Origin: Verrucomicrobiota bacterium
GTDB taxonomy: Bacteria; Verrucomicrobiota; Verrucomicrobiia; Chthoniobacterales; Terrimicrobiaceae
Length of the DNA stretch: 35,441 bases
Reading direction: 5' to 3'
Assembly (NCBI GenBank): GCA_026398275.1
Contig: JAPLTF010000046.1
Span: forward strand, 1-35,441
Position 1 is the first letter of the stretch. Every line of letters starts with the position of its first letter. The notes beneath the pieces are model-generated. The model saw nothing but the letters and a program-made list of their open reading frames with translations. It was not told where the DNA came from and made no database searches. This document shows positions 28,461 to 35,252 of this stretch, one piece after another. Position numbers and translations under genes: made by a program.

Positions 28461-29017
28461 TCGCATTGAGGGACAGCCTGCCTCTGGTTCGGTTCCATGA
28501 TGGCAGCGTGATGAATTTCGAGCGGAGCTGGCTCTCGACCGCTCTCGTCCGCGCGGCGGAGACGGCCGGCTACAAAAAGTGGTGGCTTGCGGACCACGTC
28601 ACGGAGAGCGTCACGACGTATCTTGAGCAGGACTTCAACGACAACGTGGTCACGATCTGCCGGATCGAGCGGGCGGTTCAGTCCGTGCTGCAGGTGATCG
28701 GGTATTCCGATGTCGCGCGCCACTTCCGGACGATGCCGCCGCCGGTCCGGATCTCGCTGGTCGAGATCGCGCGCGATGCGGGCGAGGGGTATGAGCTCCT
28801 CTTCTTCGAGCTGCTCCGCGCCCGTCTTCGCGGGATCATTTTTTCTGAGGCCCAGCAGGTCGAGATCTGCGACCTGCACCGCTGCGTGAAGCTATTGCGC
28901 TCGGCAAAAAACTGGCGGCGCGACTGCTCCGGCCTCCGGGGCGAAATCGTGTCGTTTGTGCGAGGTGAACTCGATCTGAGCCACCGGGCGCAGGATATCA
29001 ATCTGCAACTATCGTGA
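28457..29017 (+). CDS. ATP-cone-like protein coupled to nrdR
   Basis: 186 aa. Residues 10-93 look like a divergent ATP-cone: LVRFHDGSVMNFERSWLSTA has the V-x-x-x-DG-x-x-x-x-F-x-x-x-x-L opening of the family, followed by a helix with RAAETAG, then NVVTICRIERAVQSVLQVIG and YSDVARHFR, which align by eye with the end of an ATP-cone (V-x-T-x-x-I, helix, G-x-x-x-x-A). The C-terminal 90 residues are helical and unassigned. There is no zinc ribbon or catalytic domain. It sits between nrdR and a HIT hydrolase, each joined by 4-bp overlaps, which suggests a nucleotide-sensing role linked to dNTP control. The family call is by eye only; no search was done. Confidence 0.6.
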   Translation: MIALRDSLPLVRFHDGSVMNFERSWLSTALVRAAETAGYKKWWLADHVTESVTTYLEQDFNDNVVTICRIERAVQSVLQVIGYSDVARHFRTMPPPVRISLVEIARDAGEGYELLFFELLRARLRGIIFSEAQQVEICDLHRCVKLLRSAKNWRRDCSGLRGEIVSFVRGELDLSHRAQDINLQLS

Positions 29018-29352
29018 CGCTCTTCCAAAAAATCATCGCCCGCGAAATCCCTGCGGACATCGTCTTCGAGGATGACCTGTGCCTCGCGTTCCGCGATATC
29101 TCCCCGAAGGCGCCAGTCCATATCCTGGTGGTTCCCAAGCGGGTGATCCCGCGCGTGGCGGAATCGCTTCCGGCGGACATGGAACTTCTTGGGCATCTCC
29201 TTTTCACGGCCGGGCAGATCGCTAGGTCCGAAGGCGTCGCGGATTCGGGATTTCGGCTTGTCATCAACAATGGCCCCGACGGCGGAGAAACGGTCCCGCA
29301 TCTCCACGTGCACCTGCTCGGCGGGCGCCCGATGGCCTGGCCGCCGGGGTAG
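29014..29352 (+). CDS. HIT family (HINT-type) nucleotide hydrolase
   Basis: 112 aa with GTG at 29014 overlapping the previous stop as GTGA. It shows the HINT order: LFQKIIAREIPADIVFEDD, FRDISPKAPVHILVVPKR, RLVINNGPDGGETVPH and HLHVHLLGG with H96, H98 (the nucleophile in this family) and H100. HINT proteins split AMP from phosphoramidates such as adenosine phosphoramidate or aminoacyl-AMP. It ends the nrdR transcript; a hairpin lies 12 bp further on. Confidence 0.93.
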   Translation: MTLFQKIIAREIPADIVFEDDLCLAFRDISPKAPVHILVVPKRVIPRVAESLPADMELLGHLLFTAGQIARSEGVADSGFRLVINNGPDGGETVPHLHVHLLGGRPMAWPPG

Positions 29353-29363
29353 CCAACCAAGAA

Positions 29364-29386
29364 GAGGAATTCTGAAAGAATTTCTC
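29364..29386. terminator. Hairpin between convergent HIT and dus genes
   Basis: GAGGAATTCT (29364-29373) and AGAATTTCTC (29377-29386) form a 10-bp stem with one G-U pair and a GAA loop. It lies between two converging genes, so it could end both transcripts, though the T-run is poor on both strands (a TTCTTGGTT follows on the minus strand). Confidence 0.4.
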
Positions 29387-29399
29387 CCCGGACCGATTC

Positions 29400-30383
29400 T
29401 CATCCTCCCCGCGCCGCCTCCAACTTCATCGGTTCCCCGTGGTCGAGGGATTTGCGGCAGACATGAAAAAACTCCGCTTTCGTCGCGACCCGGCGGATGT
29501 CGTGCAGAAAATCTGGACCAATTCCTTCGCCGAGGAAATTCGTATATTTCTTCATTTTCTGGACCTGTGATTTTTCCGGGACATCGTCCGAGCAGGAGGA
29601 TTCGTAGAGCGCATCGACATAGGCGAGCACATCGCGCCCGGTCGGGAGCGTGACGGGGTTCCCGTCGAAATCATCGCGGATCTGTTGGAAAATCCACGGA
29701 TTCCGAATCGCCCCGCGTCCGATCATCAGGCCCCGGGCGCCGGTGGTTTCCCAGACGTGTCGGGCCTCCGCGACGGTGCCGACATTTCCGTTGGCGAGGA
29801 CCGGGCAGGGCATCCGGGTGACGGCCTGCGCGATCCGGCCGAGGTGAACGTGCGGGCCGTATTTTTCGGAAACCGTTCTTCCATGCACGGTCAGCAGATC
29901 GAGACGGTGTGAGGCAAAGACGTCGAGCAGGCGGTCGAATTCCGAAGGGTCGGAAAACCCGATCCGGGTCTTGACGGTGAACCGCCCGCCGATGCCCGAT
30001 CTCAGCGCCCCGAGGAGCTCGTGGATGCGGCCGGGGTCGCGGAGCAATCCGCCCCCTGCGCATTTGCGATAGACCACGGGAGCCGGGCAGCCGAGGTTCA
30101 GATCCACGGCTGCGACAGGATGCTGCTCCAACTGTTGCGCACATTTCACCATCCACTCGACATCGTTGCCGATGATCTGCGCGATGGCGGGCTTGCCGGT
30201 GGGATTTTCGATGACCGATCTCAGGATCGAGCGCTGCAGCCGGTAGCCTTTCGTCACGCGGAAATATTCGGTGAAATACACGTCCGGCCCGCCGTAGCCG
30301 GCCAGCAGTTTCCAGAACGCCCAATCGGTGACGTCTTGCATCGGGGCCAGCGCGAGGAGGGGACGGTTGTTGGGGAAATTCAT
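29400..30383 (-). CDS. tRNA-dihydrouridine synthase
   Basis: FMN-dependent reduction of uridine to dihydrouridine in tRNA D loops. 327 aa from the ATG at 30383. Motifs: LAPMQDVTDWAFW (11-24), IAQIIGND, LNLGCPAPVVYRKCAGGGLL with catalytic C99, KTRIGF, TVHGRTVSEKY, and ANGNVG and GLMIGRGAIRNPW, the FMN phosphate site. A C-terminal helical domain binds tRNA. Which of DusA/B/C it matches is unclear; it seems closest to DusB/DusC types. It overlaps the flavoprotein gene by 4 bp. Confidence 0.92.
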   Translation of the reverse strand: MNFPNNRPLLALAPMQDVTDWAFWKLLAGYGGPDVYFTEYFRVTKGYRLQRSILRSVIENPTGKPAIAQIIGNDVEWMVKCAQQLEQHPVAAVDLNLGCPAPVVYRKCAGGGLLRDPGRIHELLGALRSGIGGRFTVKTRIGFSDPSEFDRLLDVFASHRLDLLTVHGRTVSEKYGPHVHLGRIAQAVTRMPCPVLANGNVGTVAEARHVWETTGARGLMIGRGAIRNPWIFQQIRDDFDGNPVTLPTGRDVLAYVDALYESSCSDDVPEKSQVQKMKKYTNFLGEGIGPDFLHDIRRVATKAEFFHVCRKSLDHGEPMKLEAARGG

Positions 30384-31570
30384 AGCCCGGGATACGTTGC
30401 CGCCGCCTGGCCGGCCCTCGTGCCGGTGGAAAAGCAGCCCTGCATGAGGAATCCGCCAGTAGGGGCTTCCCAATCCAGCATCTCTCCTGCCACAAAAATC
30501 CCGGGACATTTTGTGATCATCAGATTCCGGTCGACTTCATTCGAGCGGATGCCGCCCGCGGAAGAGATTGCCTCCTCAATCGGACGGGGCCCGGTGAGCA
30601 CGACAGGCAGGGATTTGACGGCCTGGGCGAAGGCAGCGGGTGTCTGCCACGTTGGGCAGTCGGAATGATGCTTCATCACCACCCGGGCACTCTCCTGGAT
30701 CCGGCACCGCTCGAAGGCCTCGTGGAGATGGAAACGTCCGCCTGGCGGCATTTTTGCGACCAACTCCTCGAAACTGAACGCTGGCTTGAGGTCCAGTCGA
30801 AGCACCGGCGAAGCTCTCAGAGCCGGCGTCAGCATGTAGATCACGCCGCCTTCCAGGCCATAGTCGGTGATCAGCAACTCTCCGTATGCTGTGGCGACGC
30901 CGGCCGAGGCCTGAACATTTTTCAACGGCTGCCCAGCTGCTTCGTCGATTAACTGTCTCGGCCACGGGACCTCCCAGCCGCAGTTCGCTGGAACAAGCGG
31001 TTCGACCTCAATGCCGAATTTCCGGAACGCTTCCTGCCACCGCCCATCCGATCCCGTCCGCGGCCATGAGCCTCCACCTAGAGCAAAAACCACCACCGGG
31101 GTTTCGATGCTCCGTGGGCCACTCGGAGTTTGGAATTCCAGCTCCCATTTCCCGGATGATGCCTGGATGCCCGTCCAGCGGTGCCTGTGATGAAACTCAA
31201 CTCCCTGGGATTTCAACCGGGCGATCCATCGCCGCAGCAAGGGGGCGGACTTCATTTCCTCGGGGTAAACCCTGCCGCTCGAGACAGCGAAAGTCTGCAC
31301 GCCCAGGTCTCTGGCCCACGAACGAAGCGCCTCCGGCCCGAAACTCTCAAGAAGATCATTCCAGAGGTCGGGAGAAAGGCCGGAATATTTCGATCCACCC
31401 TCCTTGCCCGTGTTCGTCAGGTTCAGGCCACCGCGCCCCGCGACGAGAAATTTTCTTCCTGCCGATGGCATCGCTTCGAACACCGCAACCGCGACGCCGG
31501 ATCCGGCGGCGACCTCGGCCGCCCGCAGGCCCGCAGGTCCGGCCCCGACAACGCACAGCCGGCCGCTCAT
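30380..31570 (-). CDS. NAD(P)/FAD-dependent oxidoreductase, HI0933-like (PP_4765/TIGR03862 type)
   Basis: 396 aa from ATG 31570. FAD-binding N-terminus CVVGAGPAGLRAAEVAAGSG with the G-x-G-x-x-G loop, then GRKFLVAGRGGLNLTNTG, which is the HI0933 family signature (usually GGGRCN; GRGGLN marks the TIGR03862 branch). Later VFALGGGSWPRTGSDG and the C-terminal DRNLMITKCPGIFVAGEMLD and GGFLMQGCFSTGTRAG match the family's FAD-contact end. BaiN is a known distant relative; its substrate is not implied here. The 154 bp upstream are shared with glutaredoxin. Confidence 0.9.
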   Translation of the reverse strand: MSGRLCVVGAGPAGLRAAEVAAGSGVAVAVFEAMPSAGRKFLVAGRGGLNLTNTGKEGGSKYSGLSPDLWNDLLESFGPEALRSWARDLGVQTFAVSSGRVYPEEMKSAPLLRRWIARLKSQGVEFHHRHRWTGIQASSGKWELEFQTPSGPRSIETPVVVFALGGGSWPRTGSDGRWQEAFRKFGIEVEPLVPANCGWEVPWPRQLIDEAAGQPLKNVQASAGVATAYGELLITDYGLEGGVIYMLTPALRASPVLRLDLKPAFSFEELVAKMPPGGRFHLHEAFERCRIQESARVVMKHHSDCPTWQTPAAFAQAVKSLPVVLTGPRPIEEAISSAGGIRSNEVDRNLMITKCPGIFVAGEMLDWEAPTGGFLMQGCFSTGTRAGQAAATYPGL

Positions 31571-31674
31571 GGGGAAAGAAGGAAAAGTATCAGGAGCGCA
31601 AGAATCCGGACCATGCCCGCGCAGAATGGTTGAGCGGCGGAAAATTACCAGCCTGCATACGCGTTCTTCTCCCA

Positions 31675-31702
31675 TTGACTCCCGTCAATATGCCGCTACA
31701 TT
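31675..31702 (+). promoter_or_regulatory. Sigma-70-like promoter with overlapping inverted repeat for glutaredoxin
   Basis: TTGACT (31675-31680, 5/6 match to the -35 box) and TACATT (31697-31702, 4/6 match to the -10 box) are 16 bp apart. The start would be near 31709, 16 nt before the ATG at 31725. TTGAC and GTCAA form an inverted repeat (31675-31688) over the -35 box, a possible repressor or activator site. Confidence 0.5.
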
Positions 31703-31724
31703 GCGCCGCACTTCACTATTACCC

Positions 31725-32060
31725 ATGAGCAAACCTGAAATTACTGCCTACCTGAAAACCCACTGCGGCTGGAGCAAAGGCGTTCGCGCCGTCCTCTCCA
31801 AATACGACATCCCCTACACGGAGAAAGACATCATCATCAATCCGGACTTCCGGTTTGAAATGGAACAGCTCAGCGGCCAGCCGCTTTCGCCCTGCGTGGT
31901 TGTCAACGGGGTGATGCTGCCGGATCTCAGCGGCGAGGAACTGGAGAGCTACCTGCTCACAAACGGCCTCGTTCAGGAATCCGCTGCGGAGACCAATGTC
32001 CCGCTGAATTCCGCCTGCTCGGATGCCGAGCATGCCGCGATGGTGAATCTCAAGCTTTAG
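31725..32060 (+). CDS. Monothiol-type glutaredoxin
   Basis: 111 aa. The active-site stretch is YLKTHCGWSKGVRAVL (9-24) with C14-G-W-S17, like the CGFS motif of monothiol glutaredoxins and unlike the CPYC of dithiol ones. The GSH-binding cis-Pro loop reads QPLSPCVVVNG, where an extra Cys follows the cis-Pro. The C-terminal helix LSGEELESYL is followed by a tail of about 25 residues with another Cys. Possible roles are Fe-S handling, deglutathionylation or a peptidyl disulphide role. Its stop codon TAG lies at the start of the inverted repeat described below. Confidence 0.85.
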   Translation: MSKPEITAYLKTHCGWSKGVRAVLSKYDIPYTEKDIIINPDFRFEMEQLSGQPLSPCVVVNGVMLPDLSGEELESYLLTNGLVQESAAETNVPLNSACSDAEHAAMVNLKL

Positions 32061-32405
32061 AACCTGTGAAATAATTAAGAAAAGGCCGCGCGAGAGCAGA
32101 AAAGGCCGGATGGCAAGGCGCTCGCGAAGGCGCATCCCCTCTGCGGGCTGTAACTGAGCGAGCAACGCCGCCAGACGGCCTTTTCTGCTCTCGCCCGGAG
32201 GGTTGCGTGTCTTTTTGGCTTGGCCTGCGTTGCTCAGGCGGGACAGCCGATCCCGCGACTGCGGGAGAGACAGCCTGCCGCAGGCAGCCCGGAGGGCGAT
32301 GCGAAGCATCGGCAACACCGCAGCGGGTATTGCCACCGCCTTAGCGCCTTGGCCAAGCCAAAAATCCTCAACAACGCGGCTTTTCCTAATTCTTTCACAG
32401 GTTCT
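32059..32405. mobile_element. MITE-like 347-bp element with about 31-bp terminal inverted repeats
   Basis: The ends are AGAACCTGTGAAATAATTAA... (32059-32090) and its near-complement ...TCTTTCACAGGTTCT (32375-32405), with three substitutions or indels over about 30 bp. Inside, two perfect inverted repeats are nested side by side: GCGAGAGCAGAAAAGGCCG (32090-32108) with 32176-32194 (19 bp) and TTTTTGGCTTGGCC (32212-32225) with 32351-32364 (14 bp), plus short hairpins such as CGATGC-GAA-GCATCG (32298-32312). It holds no coding frame I trust. No target-site duplication is seen. The terminal repeats overlap the last bases of both converging neighbours. It could instead be a large two-way terminator; the long TIRs favour a non-autonomous element. 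Confidence 0.6.
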
Positions 32406-33219
32406 GAGCGCTCATTGGAGGCCGTCCGGCCTTCCATTCGAGGGGAGTCTGGCCGGTCTGCTTTTTGAACCAGCGGGCGAAGTAGTTCTGGTCGAGGAAT
32501 CCGGCCTCCGCCGCCGCATCGCGCACAAATGCGTGTTCGCGGAGAAGTTTTTGCGCGTGCTGCAGACGGACCTGTGATGCGAGCCCGCTTAATCCCAGCC
32601 CGGTTTCCGCCCGCACGAGCCTGCTCAGGTAGTCGGGGTGGTAGCCGAGCGCGGAGGCGACAGCCTTCGGTCTGGTGTCATTCTCCAGAAGCTTCTGGAC
32701 CCGGTGGAGGACGGTCAGCGCCGAGTGGCGGACGGATCTGGGATACCAGCCCGAGGCCTCGGCGATCTGCGCGAGCAGGCGCAGGGAGAGCGCGGCGCGC
32801 CCGATCTGGTCGGGCATCCGCTTGTCATCGTTCAGGCGGGCCATGTCTGCGAGGACGGAGCGCACGCGAGCAATTTCAACCGCCGCCAGCGCGCGTACCG
32901 CGACCCGCTTCTGCCACGGTGCCCGGAAATCCAGCATCAGGCAGAGTGGCGGCTGCCCGGCTGCCCGGCGGAACGCGTGTCTAGATCCGGGCGGGAGGAT
33001 GACCAGCGATCCGGACGAGACGGGGTGGATGCTGCGTCCGATCTGCTGCACTCCGTGGCCGGAGAGATAGAGCAATGCCTGCCAGTGGGCGTGGAAATGC
33101 GCGCCGAGCTTTGCGGTTTCCGGAAGATGCCGGTGCAGTTCCAGGCGCAGGACCGCCGTGGATCCCGCACGGGCGTCGAGGCGTGTCCAGAGCAGGTCTC
33201 TGAATGGGCGGACGGGCAT
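32395..33219 (-). CDS. AraC family transcriptional regulator
   Basis: 274 aa. An N-terminal cupin-like sensor domain (about 20-110; GAHFHAHWQALLYLSGHGVQ, then LVILPPGSRHAF) is followed by a C-terminal double HTH domain (about 170-262): AVASALGYHPDYLSRLVRAE, LRLQ-like HAQKLLRE, then AAAEAGFLDQNYFARWFKKQ TGQTPLEWK, as in AraC/XylS. The family mostly senses sugars. It is divergent from the GH88-like hydrolase, its likely target. Its stop codon and the last codons lie inside the right end of the MITE-like element, so the element may have replaced the original 3' end. Confidence 0.92.
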   Translation of the reverse strand: MPVRPFRDLLWTRLDARAGSTAVLRLELHRHLPETAKLGAHFHAHWQALLYLSGHGVQQIGRSIHPVSSGSLVILPPGSRHAFRRAAGQPPLCLMLDFRAPWQKRVAVRALAAVEIARVRSVLADMARLNDDKRMPDQIGRAALSLRLLAQIAEASGWYPRSVRHSALTVLHRVQKLLENDTRPKAVASALGYHPDYLSRLVRAETGLGLSGLASQVRLQHAQKLLREHAFVRDAAAEAGFLDQNYFARWFKKQTGQTPLEWKAGRPPMSAQNL

Positions 33220-33272
33220 GGCGCAGGATGATAGCTGCCGCAGAGGATTATGCCAATAAAAAGTCGGATATG

Positions 33273-33304
33273 TGCTAAAACTGTCGCCCTTTGCTCTAAC
33301 GCTG
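33273..33304. promoter_or_regulatory. Possible AraC-type direct-repeat site in the divergent gap
   Basis: TAAAACTG (33276-33283) and TAACGCTG (33297-33304) match at 6 of 8 positions and are 21 bp apart, two helical turns, as AraC-family half sites often are. They lie between the AraC gene and the hydrolase (33220-33338). Half sites of this size occur by chance, so this is only a candidate. Confidence 0.25.
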
Positions 33305-33338
33305 CCGGCCGGATTGTGTGAGGGTGTGGGAGTTCCGC

Positions 33339-34718
33339 ATGATCACACCCGACCGTTCCCTCACGCCATCCGACCTGGCCTCCGATATCAGGAAGCTCTG
33401 GGAGGCTTCCGCCACGAAAATCCTTTCGATTGACGCCGCGGAGGTTCCCGGCTCCGCCACCCCGGTGTTCACCGTTAAAGGCCGCTACACCGCACGCGGT
33501 TGGACCGAGTGGACACAGGGATTCGTCTACGGATCCGCGATTCTTCAATACGATGCGACCGGCGACGAGCGGTTTCTGACCCTTGGCCGCGACCGCACCA
33601 GGGAGCGGATGGCCCACCACATCACACATACCGGGGTGCATGATCACGGGTTCAACAATGTCTCCACCTACGGAAACCTCCTGCGCCTGATGGTTGAAGG
33701 CCGGATTCCATTCGACGCGAGGGAGAAGGAATTTTATGAGCTTGCCCTGAAGTGCACCGGAGCCGTGCAGGCGGCGCGGTGGTCAAAAACCTCATCTGGC
33801 GGCGGCTATATCTACTCGTTCAACGGGCCGCATTCGCTCTTTGCCGATACCATCCGCTCACTTCGTGCGCTGTCGGTTTCGCACAAGCTCGGACATGTCC
33901 TCATGGGCGAGAAGGATCTGAAGATCTCGCTTTTGGAGCGCCTGCTCCAGCACGCCCATACCACGGCGGATTTTGCAGTCTTTTACGGCGAGGGGCGGGA
34001 TTTTTACGATATCCGCGGCCGGGTCGCCCACGAGAGCATCTTCAACATGAACGACGGCAATTTCCGCTGTCCGAATTCGCAGCAGGGATTTTCGCCCTTT
34101 ACGACATGGACCCGCGGGCTCGCATGGATCATTGCCGGATACCCGGAGCAACTGGAGTGGATCGCGACGCTTCCCGATTCGGAACTTCTGGCATTCGGTG
34201 GCCGCGCGGAGGTCGAGGCCATGCTCCTGAGGCCGGCGCTGGCCTCGTGCGACTTCTACATCGCAAACACCCCGACCGACGGGATCCCGTATTGGGACAC
34301 TGGCGCGCCGGAGCTCTATCGCATTCCGGATTTCCTGAACCGTCCGGCGCAGATCGAAAACGATTTCGAGCCAGTGGACAGTTCGGCGGCCGCGATCGCG
34401 GCCCAGGGACTCCTGCGCCTCGGGCGTTATCTGCAGGGCAAGGGTGATGCCCGTGGCGAGAAATACTGGCAGGCCGGGCTGACGGTTTCAAAGACCGTCC
34501 TGTCCGAGCCCTATCTCTCCACCGATCCGAACCACCAGGGCCTGATCCTTCACTCGATCTACCATCGTCCGAACGGATGGGACCATATCCCTGCAGGCAG
34601 CAAAATTCCCCGTGGCGAGTCCTCGATGTGGGGCGACTACCACGCCCGCGAACTCGCACTCTACATCCAGCGCCTCGCCGAAAATAAACCTTACTACACG
34701 TTCTTTGGTGGAGTCTGA
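33339..34718 (+). CDS. Glycoside hydrolase family 88/105-like unsaturated glucuronyl hydrolase
   Basis: 459 aa from the ATG at 33339, which has GGGAG 7 bp upstream; a GTG at 33318 is also open. An (alpha/alpha)6-type barrel is suggested by repeated helix-loop motifs: HDHGFNNVSTYGNLLRL, HSLFADTIRSLRALS with a possible catalytic Asp, then CPNSQQGFSPFTTWTRGLAW (about 244-263), IPYWDTGAPELYRIPDFL, VDSSAAAIAAQGLLRLGR and SSMWGDYHARELALY near the end. The GH88 signature D-S-S-A-A-A-I-A-A and the final WGDY agree with the family. The Asp-containing loop before TWTRG differs from typical GH88, so the catalytic pair is not certain. No signal peptide: cytoplasmic, acting on 4,5-unsaturated uronyl oligosaccharides (pectin or glycosaminoglycan type). 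It is next to a cupin gene. Confidence 0.85.
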   Translation: MITPDRSLTPSDLASDIRKLWEASATKILSIDAAEVPGSATPVFTVKGRYTARGWTEWTQGFVYGSAILQYDATGDERFLTLGRDRTRERMAHHITHTGVHDHGFNNVSTYGNLLRLMVEGRIPFDAREKEFYELALKCTGAVQAARWSKTSSGGGYIYSFNGPHSLFADTIRSLRALSVSHKLGHVLMGEKDLKISLLERLLQHAHTTADFAVFYGEGRDFYDIRGRVAHESIFNMNDGNFRCPNSQQGFSPFTTWTRGLAWIIAGYPEQLEWIATLPDSELLAFGGRAEVEAMLLRPALASCDFYIANTPTDGIPYWDTGAPELYRIPDFLNRPAQIENDFEPVDSSAAAIAAQGLLRLGRYLQGKGDARGEKYWQAGLTVSKTVLSEPYLSTDPNHQGLILHSIYHRPNGWDHIPAGSKIPRGESSMWGDYHARELALYIQRLAENKPYYTFFGGV

Positions 34719-34750
34719 CTTTCTCAAATCTGAACTCTTAAAACATAAGC

Positions 34751-35194
34751 ATGACCATCTCCGATCTCTCACAAATTGAAGGCCGCCGGTATCCTGCACG
34801 GCGCAGAACGCAGAACCTCGCCGGCGGGGTCGCGCCGATCCAGGCAAAAAACTTCTCCATCGGGAATGTGACCCTCGATCCGGATGGTGGCCAGGTGCCT
34901 TGGCACAATCAGGATCAGGAAGAGGTCTATTTTGTTGTCGAGGGAACCGGTGAGATGTGTCTGGGTGAAGAGCGCCGGACGCTCACGAGCGGCCAGATGG
35001 TTTACATCCCGCCGGGAGTCTTTCACCAGATGACCAACATCGGTTCGACTCCGCTCCGCATGATCTATTGCTATGGTCCCGCAGGCGACGTTGCCCACTG
35101 GCGGCAGGAGCTCGATGGGACGCTCCCGAAAGCCGGAGTCGACGCGCCCGCGCTCCCTGAGGGCGCCCGCCCGCAATGCACGGAGAAACCCTGA
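34751..35194 (+). CDS. Cupin domain protein
   Basis: 147 aa. Single cupin barrel (about 40-115): PWHNQDQEEVYFVVEGTG is cupin motif 1 with H52 and E58 as likely metal ligands, and GQMVYIPPGVFHQMTNIG is motif 2 with its His. A Pro-rich tail follows. The metal site looks intact, but no substrate can be named; sugar-binding or isomerase roles are possible next to the hydrolase. It is 32 bp after the hydrolase gene on the same strand. It has no clear terminator downstream. Confidence 0.88.
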   Translation: MTISDLSQIEGRRYPARRRTQNLAGGVAPIQAKNFSIGNVTLDPDGGQVPWHNQDQEEVYFVVEGTGEMCLGEERRTLTSGQMVYIPPGVFHQMTNIGSTPLRMIYCYGPAGDVAHWRQELDGTLPKAGVDAPALPEGARPQCTEKP

Positions 35195-35252
35195 TCCAGA
35201 AATTTCACTACTGAATATCACTAAGACACACTTAAACACATTCATTGCACAT

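Follow-up and report, generated by a model that had tools for sequence, protein, structure and literature searches.

A probable IS1031-type miniature element where convergent glutaredoxin and AraC genes meet in a Verrucomicrobiota genome

In the window (the whole 35,441-nucleotide stretch of DNA analyzed here), a glutaredoxin gene and an AraC-family regulator gene converge on a short non-coding region, and the stop codons of both genes lie at its edges. Does this fit reflect a mobile element that captured the ends of two genes, or a structure kept by selection as a two-way terminator? An earlier note had raised both possibilities for a MITE-like element at 32059–32405. We found that the element is real, but that the outermost A and T of that interval are duplicated target. 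Because the target duplications mark its edges, the element was set to a true length of 345 bp (Table 1).

The ends of the window element are GAACCTGTGAAATAATTAAGAAAAGGCCGCG and, on the opposite strand, GAACCTGTGAAAGAATTAGGAAAAGCCGCG, which match over about 30 nt if one single-base gap is allowed; taken ungapped, the terminal repeats are 26 nt long and 92% identical (32059–32084 and 32380–32405). These repeats, imperfect as the note had described them, begin GAACCTGTGAAATAATTA, and the terminal motif occurs twice in the window, both times at the element’s ends. An inverted-repeat search also recovered the two further internal repeats that had been noticed: the first (32086–32114 and 32170–32198) matches over 29 nt at 90% and includes a perfect 19-mer, and the second (32212–32225 and 32351–32364) is perfect over 14 nt. 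Either strand of the element was predicted to form one long hairpin (z = −10.6 and −12.0 against dinucleotide shuffles). No frame inside the element was accepted as a gene, in agreement with the earlier reading, and the frames listed there are run-through from the neighbors. The region thus has the short length, lack of coding sequence and terminal inverted repeats expected of a MITE.

Table 1. Positions in the window of the element, its parts and the two adjoining genes.
Feature	Position	Strand	Basis or remark
MITE, 345 bp	32060–32404		homologous copies; not present in G003, a syntenic relative
Left terminal inverted repeat GAACCTGTGAAATAATTAAGAAAAGGCCGC	32060–32089	+	inverted-repeat search, end comparison
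Right terminal inverted repeat, minus strand GAACCTGTGAAAGAATTAGGAAAAGCCGC	32376–32404	−	inverted-repeat search, end comparison
Left target duplication TTA	32057–32059	+	its TA and the element’s first G together make up the TAG stop of glutaredoxin
Right target duplication TGA	32405–32407	+	one base off the left TTA in the window copy
Internal hairpin 1, 29-nt arms at 90%, core CAAGGCGC...GAGCAACGCC	32086–32198		core common to MITEs of other genomes
Internal hairpin 2, 14-nt perfect arms	32212–32364		inverted-repeat search and fold
REP-like palindromes GCCTGCCGCAGGC, CGATGCGAAGCATCG	32267–32307		matches to query positions 209–249 in many genomes of the order
Glutaredoxin gene, 111 aa	31725–32060	+	stop at insertion junction; same length as empty-site ortholog
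AraC-family regulator, 274 aa	32395–33219	−	last codons and TGA from target duplication and terminal repeat

Evidence of mobility came from the organism’s own genome (4.66 Mb, 117 contigs). A search with the element returned 124 matching pieces, including a second full-length copy at 91% identity and many partial copies at 94–97%, and we counted about 45 copies or remnants of the family. End patterns of 24 to 27 nt matched 54–55 ends versus 0 for the reversed control, and a looser scan of selected DNA from this genome gave 60 distinct ends. Searching the rest of the genome with the terminal repeats, a check proposed in the earlier note, yielded 15 two-ended copies along with many single ends. 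Lengths of the two-ended copies lay between 37 and 359 bp, and those of six of the longer copies are estimates because runs of N interrupt them. Several contigs start or end inside a copy, which is expected for a dispersed repeat. Three tiny copies of 37, 51 and 65 bp (L121 1184–1220; L122 1249–1299; L137 7728–7792) consist of little beyond two back-to-back ends.

The trinucleotide TNA precedes nearly all ends of the family, mostly within YTNAR. Identical TNA sequences flanked both sides of 10 of the 15 two-ended copies (P ~ 1e-4 against a chance of 1/4), such that the family shows both dispersed copies and target site duplication. The window copy carries flanks that differ by one base, and a copy on contig C77 has TGA on each side with one extra base at the right.

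A genome of the same genus (G003) is syntenic with positions 29000–35200 of the window at ~78% DNA identity. The alignment omits ~364 window bases against ~10 bases of G003, exactly at the element. On contig C70 of G003 the glutaredoxin (83% identical) and AraC (82% identical) genes abut, with no element or spacer, and their stop codons share CTCTAAG. This orthologous site is therefore empty and reveals both original 3′ ends, and the result that would have spoken against mobility in the earlier note (a single copy, conserved in relatives) did not arise. Together, the multiple copies, the 3-bp target duplications and the empty site bore out the description as MITE-like. We sought further clean empty sites in G003 for copies on contigs C39, C22 and C75 and found none; their flanks lay on different contigs, or one flank only was present.

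The empty site (G003:C70:4243–4255; L144, L200) reads TAAGAACCTGTCC, a string that occurs once in G003. The glutaredoxin has the same length in both genomes and stops at the same codon; therefore, its stop was in the target and was not captured. The AraC protein ends EWKSDRTGS in G003 and EWKAGRPPMSAQNL here. The stop codon positions noted earlier (TAG at 32058–32060 for glutaredoxin; TGA at 32395–32397, minus strand, for AraC) were correct, and the proposal that both lie in the repeat arms as captured stops held for one gene of the two. That is, the last residues and TGA of AraC belong to the element, whereas the glutaredoxin stop reaches into the arm by its last base only, and the empty site has a stop at the same codon position. 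After TAA, G003 continues GAACCTGTCC, which is 8 nt of the MITE terminal repeat in the same phase; this match may be chance or the relic of an earlier related insertion.

The ends and the target were compared with known insertion sequences. ISLrh, a member of the IS5 family’s IS1031 subgroup, carries the ends GAACCTGTCTAGTATCT and is flanked by TNA duplications (PMC12016507). As in the window MITE, its ends begin GAACCTGT (GAACCTGTCT...) and are accompanied by a 3-bp TNA target duplication; in contrast, ISLrh is 857 bp long with a transposase, and the window element is 345 bp and non-coding (PMC12016507). The outer bases of the MITE terminal repeat match ISLrh at 8 of 8 positions, as in ends of the IS1031 subgroup, and the 3-bp TNA duplication of the MITE family is likewise a property of that subgroup (PMC12016507). 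Contig C104 of the own genome (L113) holds a 903-bp IS with ends GAGACTGTCTGAAAA and TTA on both sides, and its transposase is of the IS5 family (NF033580, E = 4.7e-65; Pfam DUF4096 and DDE_Tnp_1). The ends of this IS are related to, but differ from, those of the MITE, so that this IS is not necessarily the mobilizing element.

No autonomous element with the MITE ends was recovered from the own genome when loci from PF01609 and PF13340 searches were scanned for the ends. The full-length transposase with the same ends that the earlier note had suggested looking for was also absent from the genomes of the order and phylum scanned for ends. The longest frames inside 16 single ends included no transposase and, judged by eye, resemble ordinary chromosomal genes. 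An autonomous partner sharing the ends is usual for a MITE and is not required, as it may be lost; moreover, the assembly is gapped at many copies, so the partner may be lost or unassembled. The exact end pattern had four matches in wider genome contigs, which lacked paired ends and were taken as chance, and none in viral contigs. No plasmid sequences similar to the element were found.

We concluded with high confidence that the window element is a non-autonomous miniature element of the IS5-family IS1031 type, a confidence that applies to the whole explanation with insertion at the gene junction. Bacterial MITEs in general, for example MITEAba12 (PMC6382973), are similarly short, multicopy and without transposase, with terminal inverted repeats and a target duplication; MITEAba12 has other ends and another host lineage, and the cognate IS of the window MITE was not found. 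The target C|TNA|G also recalls NuwaII of the PIF/Harbinger-IS5 superfamily (PMC4482050), although NuwaII has a eukaryotic host and the likeness noted is in the target site. The present family is a genuine MITE family and its kind is known; the papers searched contained no description of the family itself.

We propose that an IS1031-type transposase acting in trans, now lost or unassembled, would have mobilized the element. Insertion occurred at a YTNAR target where the two genes meet end to end, with duplication of the central TNA. In G003 this target is CTAAG and holds the stop codons of both genes; for that reason the glutaredoxin stop was rebuilt on insertion, from target TA and the element’s G, and AraC gained a short new tail (...SAQNL) ending at TGA within the terminal repeat. 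Such an insertion was probably nearly neutral. Against this account, no autonomous element was found, the window flanks differ (TTA/TGA) and the G003 empty site is imperfect.

Is the tidy fit at the stop codons more than the target would give? A gene stop fell at or just inside the junction in 11 of 23 well-scored 3′-facing flanks across the family, by a crude scoring that missed the glutaredoxin itself. Three stop positions recurred: TAA or TGA in the target, TAG from target and G combined, and a TGA that lies ten bases inside the repeat. In 75.6 kb of DNA from the own genome, 119 YTNAR sites lay outside coding sequence and 19 of these were at stop codons, compared with about 8–10 of roughly 45 insertion loci in comparable positions, on rough ORF-based gene calls. 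An excess of insertions at stop codons was rejected, as these values show no clear difference in that direction. Target sequence together with the loss of gene-breaking insertions accounts for the fit; gene ends match the element’s edges because the target sequence contains stop codons. The locus shows a TNA-targeting element entering convergent gene ends with little damage, since stop codons are present in the target and a further TGA lies a few bases into the repeat, and it cautions against taking such fits as selected design.

A different history of the site appears rather unlikely. According to this alternative, the site already held a short IS1031-type end (GAACCTGTC..., still in G003), and the present copy would have resulted from a second insertion or from an exchange between copies. 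G003 does read TAAGAACCTGTCCGG at the same phase, unique there and with 9 nt matching the ISLrh end (PMC12016507), but these nine bases were noticed after the fact and the first G belongs to the target consensus. Similarly, the mismatched duplications of the window copy would suit an older relic, whereas G003 has no copies of the window MITE family.

Selection for a two-way terminator, in which the element would be retained because its hairpin ends both transcripts, we consider decidedly unlikely. The fold is very stable on both strands, but a consensus scan of 31950–32500 found 0 terminator-like sites versus 0.9 in shuffles, and a GC-rich stem followed by a T-run on both strands, as in a bidirectional intrinsic terminator, was not seen. 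MITE copies are often at gene 3′ ends; however, 5′ ends made up 19 of 42 scored flanks, and the stop-codon junctions match target-site availability, such that the supply of YTNAR explains the fit. Some glutaredoxin genes of other genera do have a hairpin and T-run after the stop, whereas the closest syntenic relative lacks element and spacer at this site. A hairpin of such strength might still stop transcription. A fixed, immobile intergenic regulatory or RNA structure, despite the stable fold and an internal core homologous to elements across the order, is highly improbable given the many copies with target duplications and the absence at the orthologous site; Rfam gave one sub-gathering miRNA-type match, which is not meaningful in bacteria, and a miRNA identity was rejected as sub-threshold.

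For the MITE family itself, we examined how widely its ends and its inside are distributed. Of 213 genomes of the order and 387 sampled from the phylum, one in each set contained the end pattern, both times the own genome; therefore, among the genomes scanned, the family as its ends define it is a lineage-specific amplification. Its inside is older. MITE-like elements with the CAAGGCGC...GAGCAACGCC core and other terminal repeats were present in G028 (L062, L086), G003 (L065), G026 (L063, L084) and G002 (L080). In G028, two elements of 276 bp that have ends GGAGCCTGTTGAAGTAC align full-length with the window element (scores 41 and 30; shuffles averaged −102 and −106, sd ~16). The REP-like palindromes inside the element are widespread in the order as well. 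REP elements share these internal GC-rich palindromes and their commonness through the order, but here the palindromes are cargo in a transposable unit that has ends and duplications of its own.

These observations suggest a further reading, which on balance we consider unlikely: MITEs across the order would share one conserved two-hairpin core while their terminal repeats change, the core itself may have a function (to bind a host protein, in RNA processing, or like that of a terminator at gene 3′ ends), and each lineage would exchange the ends to suit whichever transposase it has. The combination of an order-wide core and changing ends offers a lead, open to testing, on the diversification of MITE families.

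Lastly, we inspected ends that stand alone. At least 16 ends had no recognizable partner in the inspected stretch (mostly 1.2–1.8 kb), with the element broken off roughly 16–70 bases in and followed by ordinary DNA. For about half of all ends no partner could be detected, in part because a contig or scaffold gap ends at that point. Ends on C113 (L124, C113:27967) and C117 (L026, C117:48430–48572) were broken at an identical GTAACGATCC, and the breaks adjoin a short frame that matches DUF6444 and another that is AbrB-like; we take this to be, probably, an IS66-like element inserted into the repeat. Three of the tested copies sit at synteny breaks with G003, a placement made uncertain by contig ends, and would fit recombination. 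At L046 1500–1517, a lone 18-bp end lies between two convergent frames with one stop at each edge, which is the window’s arrangement without the element body.
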